Below, piece by piece: positions 660 through 10,157 of a stretch of DNA of 42,393 bases. The notes under the pieces are model-generated. The model was not told the origin of the DNA, ran no database searches, and saw only the letters and a program-made list of their open reading frames with translations. The stretch's first letter is position 1; every line of letters begins with the position of its first letter. Source of the DNA: a virus; IMG/VR virus record IMGVR_UViG_3300000956_000010, positions 1-42,393 of that record; one strand, 5' to 3'. A program made the position numbers and the translations under genes.

Positions 660-878
660 CTATTTTTCCCTCGATTTATTTTTAAAATCAGCTTTTGCGT
701 CCTCGATTCCTAACTGAGGTTCAATCTTTAAATCCCTAATTCCGTCAGCGTATATAGTGGTATCGTAGTCGCAAATCTCACAATGGAATCGTCGTTTTCT
801 AAATGAGCAGCCTTTCCTACTCTTCACTGTTTTAACCAAAACCATTGGCTGCCTACATATCAAACAATTCGGTATCAT
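660..878 (-). CDS. Small zinc-ribbon protein
   Basis: This 72-aa protein has two Cys pairs, C5xxC8 and C33xxC36, flanking a basic segment (KSRKGCSFRKRRFHC). That is the layout of a small zinc ribbon that could bind nucleic acid or a protein partner. Its start overlaps the stop of the DnaA-like gene as ATGA (875-878), so translation is probably coupled. It is the last gene before the non-coding gap with the palindrome and the leader of the replication gene. The exact role is unknown. Confidence 0.75.
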   Translation of the reverse strand: MIPNCLICRQPMVLVKTVKSRKGCSFRKRRFHCEICDYDTTIYADGIRDLKIEPQLGIEDAKADFKNKSREK

Positions 879-1243
879 CGACTGTTAAATTTTAATATCA
901 GAAGCTTTTTCTGATGAAGCTGTTTTCTGGGGATTTGTTTTGATATTTCAAGCGCCCAGGAGCAACAGTCCCTCATTATTTTATCTTTTGTAAAAAGGCC
1001 GTCATAAACCTGCTTCATTGCATGAATCACTGTTGCATGATCTCGGTTAAAAAACCCTCCTATTGTATGCAAATTTAATTGAGGGTACCGGAATTTAAAA
1101 ACGGTCATTAAAACTTGACGAGGGATTACAACTTCTCGTTTCCTGGTCTTTGTGTAAAACAATTCCGCGTCCATTCCCAGGCAGTCAGCCATTGCGGTCG
1201 TCATTAATTTAAATTCGGCAAAAAAGTTTTTATAGAGTATCAT
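875..1243 (-). CDS. Stand-alone DnaA domain IV-like DNA-binding protein
   Basis: The 122-aa protein matches the C-terminal domain IV of DnaA, the helix-turn-helix that reads DnaA boxes. The key segment is RKREVVIPRQVLM at about residues 34-46, followed by the signature RDHATVIHAM at residues 67-76; the E. coli counterpart is RDHTTVLHA. The AAA+ ATPase domain is absent, so it cannot act alone as a full initiator. It could mark an origin, recruit or compete with host DnaA, or regulate transcription. It starts in an ATGA overlap with the previous gene and lies next to the candidate origin region. The last 17 residues are basic and not part of the domain. Confidence 0.85.
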   Translation of the reverse strand: MILYKNFFAEFKLMTTAMADCLGMDAELFYTKTRKREVVIPRQVLMTVFKFRYPQLNLHTIGGFFNRDHATVIHAMKQVYDGLFTKDKIMRDCCSWALEISKQIPRKQLHQKKLLILKFNSR

Positions 1244-1638: not shown

Positions 1639-3711
1639 TTATTTTTTATTAAATGCTTGAAACCTTGTTACAGTCGAATACTCTGGGGATTTTATTAGCC
1701 CATCCCCTTTGCCGGTTAACGACTCTGCTCCTGGTTCGTCAAGAACCACCATTGAGTCAATTTCTTTTGGGACCTTGAAGCATATTTGTACTGGAAAATT
1801 AACCTTCGCATCTCCCGTGATTACTTTTGTTGAAGCTCTTTGAGTGGCGGCGATAATTCGATACCCAGCTGATCGGCCTTTTTGAAGAAGTATCCGTAAA
1901 TTTTCTTCCAATGATTTTTCTACCCCTGCCTTTACAAGCTTTGTTTTAGTGCCTCCATTGGCGTAAAATCCGACCTGTTTTTCTTCGTAGATATTCAGCT
2001 CATTGCCTGATTTTGACTGAGCCACCGCGTCCGCAAACTCATCAAATATGATCATCCTTTTTCTGGACCCGCCAGATTTTACTATGTTGTTCATGGTCTC
2101 AACTTCATTTTTAAGCGCCTTTTCGATCTCTTCTATTTCCGATATTACGGTAACTCCTTTGCCTGAATGACCTTTAAATTCATGCTTAGGATCGCATATT
2201 ATTATATCGTTGATACCAGCGAGCCTTGCGTAATCAATTATTGCCATGATACAAACCGATTTTCCCGACCCCGTGGATCCACAAATCAAAACGTGCGGGG
2301 TTGAAGGATTGTCTAAATCCCAAACAACTGTATTTCCCATGTTATCAATCCCTATAGGAATCTTCATTCCAGATAATTTTTCAGGAGAGAACTCTAAAAA
2401 CTTCTCTCTCTTTTTGCCTGATTCAAGGGCCAGGTAAGACCTTCCTTCATGAACGTAAAGGTTTTTCATTATTCGAACACTCTCAACGCTTAGTGCGCTG
2501 GCAATGTCCAGTTTGTATTTATTCACGCTCGATACCTGGGTTCCAGCCTGGACCTCCAATAAGAAAGTGTTACTGGAATATCCATCGAATGTATGGCCGA
2601 CTTTAGCACTCAGGCCGAAGGTTCTTAAAACGTGCTCTATTTTTTCTTGTGGTGTCATGTCTTTGTTAGTTAAATCGTAGGTAATAAACTCCGCCGCATT
2701 CTCTCGGAATTTTTTTATTATAGATGGGTTTATTTGCCCGAGCGAAGCATCCCGTATTTTCTTTAATCTCATTTTTATGAGCTCCTTATTTGAAGCGTTG
2801 GGAAAATCCTCGATCTCGCAAATAAGCGTCCTTGCCCAAAACTCATAAACCTCAGCCAGGTCCACGTAATTGTCCGCCTCATTGATCATGTAAACGTAGT
2901 TTGGGTTCGATACCGCTTCAATCATTCTTTTAACCGGCTCGTAAAGCAATGCCTCGTAAAGCCTTCTCGTATCTTCAGTTATTTCTACTTTGAAGCAGTT
3001 TAGTTGCGGAGCTCCGTTTTTGTTTTCGGAATATTTGTTCTCAATAAACCAGACCTCATCAACGGCAACCTCGTTTTGAGATTCGAAAAGCAAAACGTAG
3101 GTAATGCCTTGTTTCCCTATAGAAAACTTCAGTTCCTTTTCGTCAGTAAAGGCGGCTTTGGATTTGTGATCAATGATTACGATTTTCTTGCTCTTGGTCT
3201 TTATTACAAGATCCATAACCCCGCTACACGGCAAAGGGATTTCAACTCCGTTTATCGTAATAAAATCGTGTATGTAAAGCTCTACGGCTATTACTTCGGC
3301 GATGTCGTCAATGTAAACAGACACCTCTTTCAGAAAGTTTTCCAGCAAGCATAGCGTTAATTTTTCGGCTTTCTTTTTACACTCCTCAATTGTCGGAGTT
3401 GTCTTTTGTGTTTTCCAATCCGAGGGTTTAACGGTGTCAATATAGTCGAAAGCTACTGATTGCAGCCAGGCAATATCAACCTTAATTCCTTTTTGAAATT
3501 GAAGAAAGAATGAAGCCTGAGCCTTATGATAAGCGCTTCCCGCAACCTCGCTTGAGGACCTTTTAAATGGCTCTTGGTAAATGTAGGACATTTCAAAAGC
3601 CTTTTCATTTCTTGAGAAGGTGCTCACCTTTGAGTAGCTCCACGATTTGATCAAGTAGTTACTAAAGTGTTCCTCCTGCTCGTCTTTGCTTAAAAGAGAG
3701 TAGCGATTCAT
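1639..3711 (-). CDS. PD-(D/E)XK nuclease fused to an FtsK-type DNA translocase
   Basis: This 690-aa protein has two recognisable halves. Residues 22-210 match a RecB/Cas4-type nuclease: GSAYHKA with H62, E144, GVMD with D167, IIDHKSK with D181 and K183, and QxxxY at 201-205. Residues 350-450 resemble the FtsK alpha domain (KLDIASALSVESVRI). Residues 455-690 are an FtsK motor, with Walker A GSTGSGKS (478-485), Walker B MIIFDEFAD (553-561), KGRSAGYRIIAATQR (611-625) and VITGDAKVNFP (630-640). The DNA-guiding gamma domain is absent. All visible catalytic residues are intact. It is coupled by ATGA to the upstream annealing-like gene. The likely role is to translocate along DNA while trimming ends for recombination, a single-chain analogue of archaeal HerA-NurA. 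That role is inference. Confidence 0.88.
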   Translation of the reverse strand: MNRYSLLSKDEQEEHFSNYLIKSWSYSKVSTFSRNEKAFEMSYIYQEPFKRSSSEVAGSAYHKAQASFFLQFQKGIKVDIAWLQSVAFDYIDTVKPSDWKTQKTTPTIEECKKKAEKLTLCLLENFLKEVSVYIDDIAEVIAVELYIHDFITINGVEIPLPCSGVMDLVIKTKSKKIVIIDHKSKAAFTDEKELKFSIGKQGITYVLLFESQNEVAVDEVWFIENKYSENKNGAPQLNCFKVEITEDTRRLYEALLYEPVKRMIEAVSNPNYVYMINEADNYVDLAEVYEFWARTLICEIEDFPNASNKELIKMRLKKIRDASLGQINPSIIKKFRENAAEFITYDLTNKDMTPQEKIEHVLRTFGLSAKVGHTFDGYSSNTFLLEVQAGTQVSSVNKYKLDIASALSVESVRIMKNLYVHEGRSYLALESGKKREKFLEFSPEKLSGMKIPIGIDNMGNTVVWDLDNPSTPHVLICGSTGSGKSVCIMAIIDYARLAGINDIIICDPKHEFKGHSGKGVTVISEIEEIEKALKNEVETMNNIVKSGGSRKRMIIFDEFADAVAQSKSGNELNIYEEKQVGFYANGGTKTKLVKAGVEKSLEENLRILLQKGRSAGYRIIAATQRASTKVITGDAKVNFPVQICFKVPKEIDSMVVLDEPGAESLTGKGDGLIKSPEYSTVTRFQAFNKK

Positions 3712-4526
3712 GGCATGGTAGTATTAGGCTTCGCCGTCTTTTTTTGATTGGAAAGTATCTCTTCTCTCCTCTTATTCATTGCCGCCTTGAAATCTTCATT
3801 GGTATGCAGTTCTGGCAATTGATTCCAGTACTTTTTGAGGTCTGTCGTAGAAGTCATTAATTCGATCTGTTCTTTCACCTGATCGTCGAATTCGGATGAA
3901 GATTCGTCTTTTGTTTTTTCGTCAGCCTCCTCCTTTGGTACTGGCTCGTATCCTGCCGCCTTCATCACAAATCCGAGTATGTTTTTATAACCCCTTCCTA
4001 TTGACCTTGTTTGCGCCTGCGCGTGTATAGCGTACTCATCAAAGCTTACTTTAGCGAGCTCCATATTCGTAACGATAGAAAACCCTCTGCAAACCACCTT
4101 ATCGGTAGTGATGTTTTTAATCTCGCAGTTGCATTTGTATTTGTAGAGCGGGAGAATTTCTTTTCTTATCGCCTTTTTTTCTCGCTGCTCAATCTCTTCT
4201 TTTATTTGACCTGCGTAAAACGGGACCTCTACCTCGTAAGAGTTTCCGCTCCCTTTCTTGGTCACCTTTTTATATAGAACTGTAAAAACCTCCCCCTCCT
4301 TGTGTAGTGCGATCGGTTCCGCGGGGTCATTGGTGAGGTTAAAATTTAATCCTGCGTATTTCCAGCCGTCTACGTTCGCATACTTACTGCCTTTTATAAG
4401 ACAAGATAATCCGCTCTTTTCAATAAACGTTCGGAGCTCATTTGCAAATCCTAAAATGTGATGCTGGTTACTCAACTGTAGAGGCGCTGAGGTCCTTTTT
4501 AATGCTACTTCTTTCTTAGTTCCCAT
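3708..4526 (-). CDS. Candidate recombination protein (single-strand annealing type)
   Basis: This is a 272-aa protein. Its N-terminal half has a YANVDGWKYAGLNFNL segment, and near residue 170 comes AQAQTRSIGRGYKNILGF followed by AAGYEPVPKEEADE. Phage proteins with a similar AQTRA...lGfv...AGYEpxPxEE layout often lie beside recombination nucleases and are thought to resemble Erf/Rad52-type annealing proteins. The C-terminus (about 205-272) is acidic then basic and looks like a flexible tail. Its neighbour is the nuclease-FtsK fusion, which fits a two-component recombination pair. Family assignment is by motif memory only. Confidence 0.6.
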   Translation of the reverse strand: MGTKKEVALKRTSAPLQLSNQHHILGFANELRTFIEKSGLSCLIKGSKYANVDGWKYAGLNFNLTNDPAEPIALHKEGEVFTVLYKKVTKKGSGNSYEVEVPFYAGQIKEEIEQREKKAIRKEILPLYKYKCNCEIKNITTDKVVCRGFSIVTNMELAKVSFDEYAIHAQAQTRSIGRGYKNILGFVMKAAGYEPVPKEEADEKTKDESSSEFDDQVKEQIELMTSTTDLKKYWNQLPELHTNEDFKAAMNKRREEILSNQKKTAKPNTTMP

Positions 4527-4720
4527 ATTGCTATTAGTTGATTTAAAATATTTTCATCGTAAGTTTTCAGATTAAATACCGATTGAACCCTCCATTTTTC
4601 GCGTTTTGTTAAAGTGCCATGATAATGCTGATACAGTACAAGGTAGTTCCAGTGACCACCTACTCTATCTATAAAGGCTGCATGTTTTTTGCGGTATTCG
4701 TTGCGTTCCCTGAAAGTCAT
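4505..4720 (-). CDS. First gene of the leftward operon, unknown function
   Basis: This 71-aa basic protein is rich in Arg, Lys and aromatic residues (FRERNEYRKKHAAF, WNYLVLYQHYHGTL) and is probably all-helical. Its ATG lies 18 bases downstream of a well-formed -7 element. The last 22 bases overlap the start of the annealing-like gene in another frame. A small, basic, first-expressed protein could be a DNA-binding accessory or an anti-host factor, but nothing in the sequence decides this. Confidence 0.65.
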   Translation of the reverse strand: MTFRERNEYRKKHAAFIDRVGGHWNYLVLYQHYHGTLTKREKWRVQSVFNLKTYDENILNQLIAIWELRKK

Positions 4721-4840: not shown

Positions 4841-5341
4841 ATGAAAAATCATGAATTTAAAATAGGAGAAAAAGTTTATCATCCCATATACGGGGCTGGT
4901 ATTATCGAGGGTGTTCGGGGTGTAACATTATATCCTTTTAGGGTTAGGTTTGAAGGGTTTGGGAATGGCTGGACATTTACAGAGGACGGTAAATTATTTT
5001 CAGAGGATTCGGCTCCCTCAATATTTCCATACCCTGTAAAAGTGGTTCCGGAAAACCCTGCAATAGTTGATCACAGCGAAAAGATAATGACTCCTGGTGG
5101 ACCTTCTGCTGTCGGCAGCAAGAAAATATCTGAATTGAGCCACGAGCTTAAAAAAGATATTTTCGATCGTCAGCAGAAGATTACTCAGGATTCTCTTATG
5201 GATGCCATTGTAAAGGCCGGAAAAATTCTCGATGTCTTTACGGCACTGAAGCAGTTTATTGATTTGCAGGAGTCAAATGAATCAAATCTAAATTTGATGA
5301 ACAACAGGATTGCACAAATCGAAAATTATTTACAATTATAA
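4841..5341 (+). CDS. Two-part protein with an N-terminal small beta domain
   Basis: In this 166-aa protein, residues 5-70 have the pattern FKIGEKVYHPIYGAGIIEGV ... YPFRVRF ... WTFTEDGKL ... APSIFPYPV. This looks like the small SH3/KOW-like fold seen in CarD-like and other GxGxV proteins. Residues 100-166 are helical and likely coiled. The same N-terminal pattern recurs in the gene at 8859. It is the first gene after the rightward promoter and so is made early. Binding to RNA polymerase or nucleic acid is possible but is only inferred from the fold. Confidence 0.8.
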   Translation: MKNHEFKIGEKVYHPIYGAGIIEGVRGVTLYPFRVRFEGFGNGWTFTEDGKLFSEDSAPSIFPYPVKVVPENPAIVDHSEKIMTPGGPSAVGSKKISELSHELKKDIFDRQQKITQDSLMDAIVKAGKILDVFTALKQFIDLQESNESNLNLMNNRIAQIENYLQL

Positions 5342-7348: not shown

Positions 7349-8101
7349 ATGAATTTAGATCAGGCAAAAGAAGAAGTGGCGATAAAACACGGCTACGAAA
7401 ATTGGACAACATTGTTAATAAAAATCCCAGACAGTGGTTGGTATAAATATTACGAAGAAGCTGGGAATTTGGTTATTTCCTCCAAAGACACCGAGCTATC
7501 TGACTATAAAGAAGCTCATGAGTCGAAACAAGAACTAGTTAGAGAGATTGGTAAAATATTGGATGGAGAAAATGCTGCAAAACAACCCTCTTTATGTGAC
7601 CTGGTTGGCCCGATAAGGGATTTAAAGTCCGAGCTAGAACAGGCGAAGAAGGAAATAGAGGTGTTGAATGATCGATATAACAAATTGAACCATAGCTACA
7701 ATGCTTTAGATGAAGTTTACAGGCAGGAAACTAGAATATGTCGTCGCCAATCCAAAGATATAGAAGAACTGAAGGCGATACTAAATTCAAATTCGCCAGA
7801 AGTTATGAAGTTTCTAAATAAAAATACAAAGGATAAAATATTGCTCAATTCAGAAATTGACAGGCTGAAAAAGGAAATCGAATCTTTAAAGAAAGAGCGG
7901 GATAAATTAAAATCAATGCAGCCTCATGGCGCAGAGTTTGAGAAATTAATTAGGAAGTCCAATGACTATAATAATTTACAGGCCGAACTCGACAGGCTAA
8001 AGGGGGAGATAAGGCAATTAAAAGGATTTAGGAAATGTAATGATTGCGAAACAGAATTTAAGTCCGATGGCCGTTGCCCAGAATGCAACCCACTAGGATG
8101 A
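7349..8101 (+). CDS. Long coiled-coil protein with a C-terminal zinc ribbon
   Basis: In this 250-aa protein, residues 1-70 form a small globular part. Residues about 75-225 are almost continuous coiled coil, with heptads such as LKSELEQAKKEIEVLND and LKKEIESLKKERDKLK. The tail has two Cys pairs, C230xxC233 and C243xxC246, typical of a zinc ribbon. It is likely a dimer or trimer that presents zinc domains to a nucleic acid or protein target. No enzymatic motif is visible. Confidence 0.75.
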   Translation: MNLDQAKEEVAIKHGYENWTTLLIKIPDSGWYKYYEEAGNLVISSKDTELSDYKEAHESKQELVREIGKILDGENAAKQPSLCDLVGPIRDLKSELEQAKKEIEVLNDRYNKLNHSYNALDEVYRQETRICRRQSKDIEELKAILNSNSPEVMKFLNKNTKDKILLNSEIDRLKKEIESLKKERDKLKSMQPHGAEFEKLIRKSNDYNNLQAELDRLKGEIRQLKGFRKCNDCETEFKSDGRCPECNPLG

Positions 8102-9761: not shown

Positions 9762-10157
9762 ATGGAAACAGCTGTACCAATAAAATTAAACGCATTGGCT
9801 CAAATTATATTCGAGAGAAACGTAGCATCCGGCTATTATAAATCAGAGAAAAATATCGGAGAGATGCTGGCCCTTATACATTCAGAAGTTTCAGAAGCCC
9901 TTGAAGCTGATCGAGAAGATAAATATTCGGTAGGAGCTTCTCGTAACATTCACGTAATTAATGGATGGGTGAAAGATTCTGATTTTCTTGAACATTACCA
10001 ACAAGCAATAAAAGGTACGTTTGATGAAGAAATGGCCGACATAATTATAAGGGTGTTAGATCTTTGTGGATTTAAAGGAATTGATATTGCTGGCCATATC
10101 CATGCAAAACTAAGATATACCTCAATTAAGGGTAGAAACAAGAAAAAGAGTTACTAA
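9762..10157 (+). CDS. MazG-like NTP pyrophosphohydrolase
   Basis: This 131-aa protein has the metal-binding pattern of the all-alpha NTP pyrophosphatase superfamily: SEVSEALEADRED with E42 and E45, then FDEEMADIIIRVLD with E90 and D93. It ends in HIHAKLRYTSIKGRNKKKSY, close to the terminus of phage MazG-like proteins. These enzymes cleave nucleoside triphosphates to monophosphate and pyrophosphate. In phages they are proposed to shape nucleotide pools or blunt host alarmone signalling. The catalytic residues appear complete. Confidence 0.85.
   Translation: METAVPIKLNALAQIIFERNVASGYYKSEKNIGEMLALIHSEVSEALEADREDKYSVGASRNIHVINGWVKDSDFLEHYQQAIKGTFDEEMADIIIRVLDLCGFKGIDIAGHIHAKLRYTSIKGRNKKKSY

Follow-up and report, generated by a model that had tools for sequence, protein, structure and literature searches.

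Recombineering is founded on the annealase-exonuclease pairs of phages, and motors of the FtsK family act on double-stranded DNA (dsDNA) as rings. In the SynExo systems lambda Red (Redalpha and Redbeta) and RecE/RecT, a nuclease and an annealing protein are encoded together. Redbeta binds the Redalpha exonuclease in part through its C-terminal domain, and cross-pairs of Red and RecET components fail on dsDNA, the contact being specific (PMC5052646). End resection by archaeal and bacterial HerA-NurA relies on a dsDNA motor coupled to a nuclease (PMC9960219), with motor (HerA) and nuclease (NurA) encoded by two genes. AdnAB, AddAB, RecBCD and Dna2 carry a nuclease beside an ATP-driven motor in one chain, the motors being SF1 helicases that act on single-stranded DNA (ssDNA). 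We analyzed a 42,393-nucleotide stretch of viral DNA (IMG/VR record IMGVR_UViG_3300000956_000010, positions 1 to 42,393; here called the window), in which a PD-(D/E)XK nuclease and an FtsK-type motor are fused in one protein, an arrangement of phages of Bacteroidota. This fusion and its candidate annealing partner are probably a novel form of exonuclease-annealase pair. The literature searched, an incomplete collection, contained no account of the fusion or of the C-terminal tail shared by its partners.

The fusion gene lies on the minus strand at 1639..3711, where 690 stop-free codons run from 3711 to 1639 (the reverse complement of 1639-3711); the plus strand of this interval has no open frame and many stops, and the sequence-only reading had named no strand. 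Its 690-aa product comprises, with all coordinates on the minus strand, a Cas4/RecB-like PD-(D/E)XK nuclease domain (residues 22-229; 3025..3648), a conserved helical middle (residues 246-345; 2677..2976), an FtsK alpha domain (residues 354-418; 2458..2652), and an FtsK RecA-like motor (residues 446-690; 1642..2376) with Walker A GSTGSGKS at 478-485, the Walker B pair DE at 557-558 and TQRAS at 623-627. Pfam matches to PDDEXK_1 (residues 23-229, E 5e-10, 40.1 bits against a cut-off of 22), FtsK_alpha (354-418, E 8.5e-8) and FtsK_SpoIIIE (E 6e-9) all exceeded the curated cut-offs, and PHROG gave the same division (PHROG 1218, exonuclease, residues 24-211, E 3e-13; PHROG 1358, FtsK-like, residues 339-686, E 2e-41), so that the nuclease and the FtsK part are each supported by two independent libraries. 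The H, E, D, D-x-K and QxxxY motifs are present in order, and the residues that the sequence-only reading had named (H62, E144, D167, D181/K183 and QxxxY) proved correct: H62, E144, D167, D181, K183, Q201 and Y205 were invariant in 42 family members, as were K484, the lysine of Walker A, and D557-E558 of Walker B. This invariance suggests that nuclease activity is central to the fusion. The cysteine columns of the family alignment held no conserved Fe-S cysteine set in the nuclease domain. The interdomain region, which is helical in the AlphaFold2 model, has no family match and is as conserved as the catalytic parts (3.22 bits versus 2.88 bits for the nuclease).

An AlphaFold2 model built from 42 sequences had a mean pLDDT of 86 and a pTM of 0.50, with a weak spot near residues 320-350; these values lend credence to the two halves taken singly but leave open how they are placed relative to each other. 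In Foldseek searches of the PDB, FtsK of Escherichia coli and Pseudomonas aeruginosa ranked first for the motor (6t8o and 2ius; best E 7e-24), in agreement with Pfam and PHROG 1358 and with the earlier assignment of an alpha-like domain and a Walker-type motor. Lower-ranked matches that bear a nuclease included Cas4-like ACE1, AdnAB and Dna2. The fusion thus resembles AdnAB, AddAB, RecBCD and Dna2 in having a structurally similar nuclease and an ATP-driven motor in one chain (Foldseek having returned AdnAB and Dna2), but its motor is an FtsK-type dsDNA translocase and no set of Fe-S cysteines is conserved in it. The comparison with HerA-NurA made in the sequence-only reading stands for the logic of a motor plus a nuclease; it does not extend to the components, because the motor is of the FtsK type with an alpha domain and the nuclease is Cas4/RecB-like, both in one chain. 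The DUF87/HerA match was weaker than that to FtsK, and NurA was not among the Pfam matches of the fusion, which therefore does not belong to HerA-NurA. With FtsK/SpoIIIE the fusion has in common the alpha domain, the RecA-like motor, Walker A and B and the TQR motif. The N-terminal membrane segments of classical cell-division FtsK are absent, with the nuclease sitting in their place, and the chain stops after the motor, without a gamma domain.

The closeness of motor fold and alpha domain to bacterial FtsK, together with the occurrence of FtsK-like genes without a nuclease in phage genome records (mycobacteriophages and others), would fit a motor for DNA segregation, for handling of concatemers or chromosome dimers, or for conjugation-like transfer, to which the nuclease is an accessory. 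This may hold for other FtsK-bearing phages. For the fusion we regard it as the least probable of the alternatives considered, given that neither a KOPS-reading gamma domain nor a membrane domain is present and that the invariant nuclease residues speak for a central nuclease activity.

The joining of both domains in one chain is not peculiar to the window. First protein scans yielded 31 loci in viral contigs and 11 in genome contigs, and in all 42 relatives the two halves shared a frame except where a contig end truncated them. A wider scan with the alignment brought the number to 91 distinct fusion proteins, every one of which, apart from those truncated at a contig end, spanned both halves in a single frame, and a frameshift or assembly artefact, the condition under which the earlier claim of a fusion was to fall, was rejected on these grounds. 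Stand-alone nuclease or motor halves were not found in any of the fetched loci, with the exception of one contig-cut piece and of locus L248 (2104-4213, plus strand), where the fusion is split over two overlapping frames, probably because this contig was misassembled or contains a frameshift. In another relative (L114:3784-6687, plus strand), an intein-like insert of about 270 aa lies inside the Walker A loop (GATG^CLSADT...VHN^SGKS); inteins favor conserved active sites such as this loop. A search of 50,697 phage genomes gave no match to the whole fusion, the best coverage being about half (the FtsK part), and the nuclease half alone had no match in these records. By record title all 11 genome-contig loci belong to Bacteroidota (Tenacibaculum, Flavobacterium, Paludibacter, Paraflavitalea, Tannerella and others). 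Each of four host genomes examined has its own separate, weaker FtsK match. In a sample of 395 genomes from the phylum of the Tenacibaculum host, only that host itself carried the fusion, which is accordingly rare in host genomes.

The gene that ends at or overlaps the start of the fusion gene differs between phages and encodes RecT, ERF, Sak4-like, Bet-like, PHROG 3657, PHROG 15333 or other proteins. Among 41 partners, Pfam identified RecT in 9, AAA_24/Sak4-like in 6 and ERF in 5, and PHROG matches were RecT-, Bet-, Erf- and Sak4-like; one locus (L020) had no recognized partner within the stretch read. Mapped on a tree built from 87 fusion proteins, the class of the partner requires at least 31 changes. 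The replacement is directly visible between loci L063 and L065 of two near-identical phages, in which the fusion DNA is 98% identical and homology resumes upstream, with the annealing gene in between replaced. This swap, between a PHROG 561 and a PHROG 3657 type (L063:3702-4499 and the matching L065 gene, which ends at 4528), left both flanks intact. A long tandem repeat array with 24-bp steps lies upstream of the swapped gene in L063 (2606-3430) and is far shorter in L065. PHROG 3657 and PHROG 15333 have no assigned function; their members bear the tail described below and occupy the annealing slot (for example, L001:7129-7989 and L087:3350-4057), and tail and slot together suggest that they are probably annealing proteins. 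Since the slot in relatives holds RecT, ERF, Bet-like and Sak4-like proteins, the earlier proposal of a recombination or host-DNA-degrading machine was strengthened in its first part; of host-DNA degradation as a purpose there was no sign.

Motor-nuclease defense complexes are known (PMC11291478), and PADLOC models of HerA-type and other motors matched the ATPase of the fusion, as they would if it were mainly a machine for degrading host DNA or for exclusion, similar to HerA-nuclease defense, with the neighboring protein protecting or recycling phage DNA. The PADLOC matches were, however, confined to the motor, with none on the nuclease, and the fusion does not qualify as an anti-phage HerA system; moreover, most loci have an annealing protein in the partner slot, and relatives of these proteins elsewhere can precede YqaJ recombination nucleases. 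We consider a mainly host-DNA-degrading or exclusion role very unlikely. In a sample of 10 annealing relatives without the fusion, the downstream gene was YqaJ in 3 (L179, L319 and L332), and the other 7 had no Pfam match. The YqaJ-type nucleases, although found downstream of the same annealing families, differ from the fusion in being small, single-domain proteins with no motor and no shared annealase tail.

The partners, although drawn from unrelated families, nearly all end in a common tail, roughly K-[P/V/I/L]-[E/D]-[L/M]-P-COOH. Position -2 was L or M in 89/93 partners and the last residue was P in 69/93; position -5 is frequently K, and a KK..[LM][KR] stretch is often found upstream. In about one-quarter of the tails the final residue is not P but L, M, A, Y, S or K (L108 ends LDLK). 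We collected viral-contig relatives for four of the partner families and divided them by the presence of a downstream fusion gene. An [LM]P end was found in 50/67 proteins with the fusion versus 0/208 without it, and the association held within each family (PHROG 3657, 22/31 versus 0/49, Fisher P = 7e-13; RecT, 9/14 versus 0/56, P = 3e-8; ERF, 6/6 versus 0/56, P = 2e-8; Sak4, 13/16 versus 0/47, P = 5e-11). A looser form of the tail was present in 65/67 versus 5/208; the two failures were L003, which has an in-frame tail (KKELMRSNENKGEEMP) behind an internal stop, and L031, which ends DLPS. On annealing-protein trees from which the last 25 residues were left out, independent contrasts went in the predicted direction in Sak4 (3), RecT (3 to 5), PHROG 3657 (4 to 6) and ERF (1), with 0 in the opposite direction. 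Background occurrence of [LM]P was 5/947 among other ORFs of the same loci, 2 of the 5 being partners themselves. Across partner classes, the last residue showed no significant coevolution with the fusion (permutation P = 0.28). Five Sak4-like proteins without the fusion (L409, L410, L411, L414 and L424) have, at or near their ends, acidic tips of the D-D-P-F or S-P-F type that recall SSB tails, and the C-terminal tips of Sak4-like proteins may be exchangeable adaptors in general.

The tail could also be a by-product of the gene junction, arising from the context of the start codon, from translational coupling, or from recombination with a breakpoint so placed that the final codons of the former annealing gene stay joined to the fusion gene. 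Overlap by ATGA was seen in 51/93 partner-fusion pairs, and CCATGA naturally yields Pro-stop; in L063 and L065 the conserved DNA begins 16 nt ahead of the fusion ATG, so that the last codons could remain; and tails with the same terminal state tend to group on the fusion tree, with 12 changes versus a shuffled mean of 17. Yet among other ATGA-overlapping genes of the same loci, [LM]P occurred in 2/100, at least 1 of which was a partner, and the tail was retained where the genes lie apart (L054, L027, L106, L112, L015 and L018), including a locus with an HNH gene between them (L015) and one with three intervening genes (L018). Overlap and simple linkage are thus insufficient to account for it. 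The HNH endonuclease-like ORF of L015 is at 7477-8004 (plus strand), and the tail is still present there. Several different Pro codons are used in nonoverlapping pairs, the terminal codons being variously CCA, CCG, CCC and CCT. Both L063 and L065 retain KK..M[KR]..MP despite the swap of the annealing gene, and in the upstream KK..[LM][KR] part the DNA differs and the pattern agrees. An artefact of the start overlap was rejected as the source of the tail by the ATGA control and the separated genes, and we judge the wider by-product explanation unlikely.

In the window itself, the partner is a 272-aa protein encoded at 3708..4526 on the minus strand; the coupling to the fusion gene that had been proposed from the sequence takes the form of a 4-nt ATGA overlap. 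The codons of its C-terminal tail (3711..3746, minus strand; QKKTAKPNTTMP) end in the family motif [LM]P-COOH, the protein terminating in KPNTTMP; no other window ORF of at least 60 aa has an [LM]P end. It had no significant Pfam, PHROG or PADLOC match, no tblastn match in the 50,697 phage records and no relatives found in viral contigs; a single-sequence AlphaFold model had a pLDDT of 35, and hhalign gave it a probability of 9% to ERF and 0.2% to PHROG 3657. Its designation as an annealing partner in the sequence-only reading is upheld by position and tail, not by membership of an annealing family, and it is a candidate annealing protein from these two features. An annealing protein of known family, as found beside the nuclease in SynExo pairs, is present in relatives of the fusion, whereas the window partner has no family match; the best reading is that fusion and partner would act like a SynExo pair. 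A small ORF that overlaps the start of the partner gene (71 aa; 4505..4720, minus strand; no Pfam or PHROG family) is possibly the first of the operon, and a downstream ORF with a DnaA C-terminal (domain IV type) helix-turn-helix (875..1243, minus strand; Pfam Bac_DnaA_C, E 7e-14), homologues of which lie near the fusion in 8 related loci, possibly belongs to it as well. Elsewhere in the window are a divergent gene with a subthreshold CarD/TRCF RID domain match (4841-5341, plus strand; E 8e-4) and a pyrophosphatase-like gene (9762-10157, plus strand; PHROG 9236, E 1e-21).

We think it probable that the locus encodes a phage homologous-recombination module, in which the exonuclease shares a chain with a dsDNA-translocating motor of the FtsK type and annealing proteins are interchangeable via a docking tail. 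The FtsK part would form a ring around a dsDNA end and pull in DNA using ATP; the lack of a gamma domain suggests that loading is not directed by sequence, which makes DNA ends the likely entry. The nuclease, near the entrance of the ring, would degrade one strand, probably the 5' strand, leaving ssDNA. The annealing protein encoded by the adjoining gene may be tethered to the nuclease-motor by K-x-[E/D]-[L/M]-P-COOH and load on the emerging ssDNA, and the outcome would be strand annealing that serves repair, mosaic exchange or the formation of concatemers. What the sequences show is the fused architecture with its catalytic residues intact, the conserved place in the operon, the replacement of partners and the association of the tail with the fusion; from these we infer that the motor forms a ring, that resection is driven by ATP, which strand is degraded, and that the tail binds the fusion. 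Our guess for the docking platform of the tail is the helical middle (residues 246-345), which is conserved like the catalytic parts and belongs to no known family. The help that the C-terminal part of Redbeta gives in binding its nuclease is a precedent for such docking (PMC5052646). A SynExo nuclease is a 5'-3' dsDNA exonuclease in physical contact with its annealase, and for such a contact the shared tail is indirect evidence here. Lambda exonuclease, in contrast, has no motor, and SynExo pairs are reported to be specific; the fusion, as a single nuclease family, is accompanied by annealing proteins of many families with a common tail.

We propose that the annealing domain has been swapped repeatedly among unrelated families, with the tail kept, because the contact is the short tail. 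We lean, by a little, towards a general form of this proposal, in which a C-terminal peptide of about 5 to 20 residues suffices for evolutionarily unrelated annealing proteins to function with a single motor-driven resection nuclease, giving these phages a modular recombinase with a freely exchangeable annealing part. If true, a foreign annealing protein would become compatible once the tail was grafted onto it. A motor-bearing nuclease served by many tail-sharing annealing proteins would explain the free swapping of phage recombination genes, would allow compatibility to be tested directly through the gain or loss of a few residues, and would offer a possible route to recombineering in Bacteroidota.
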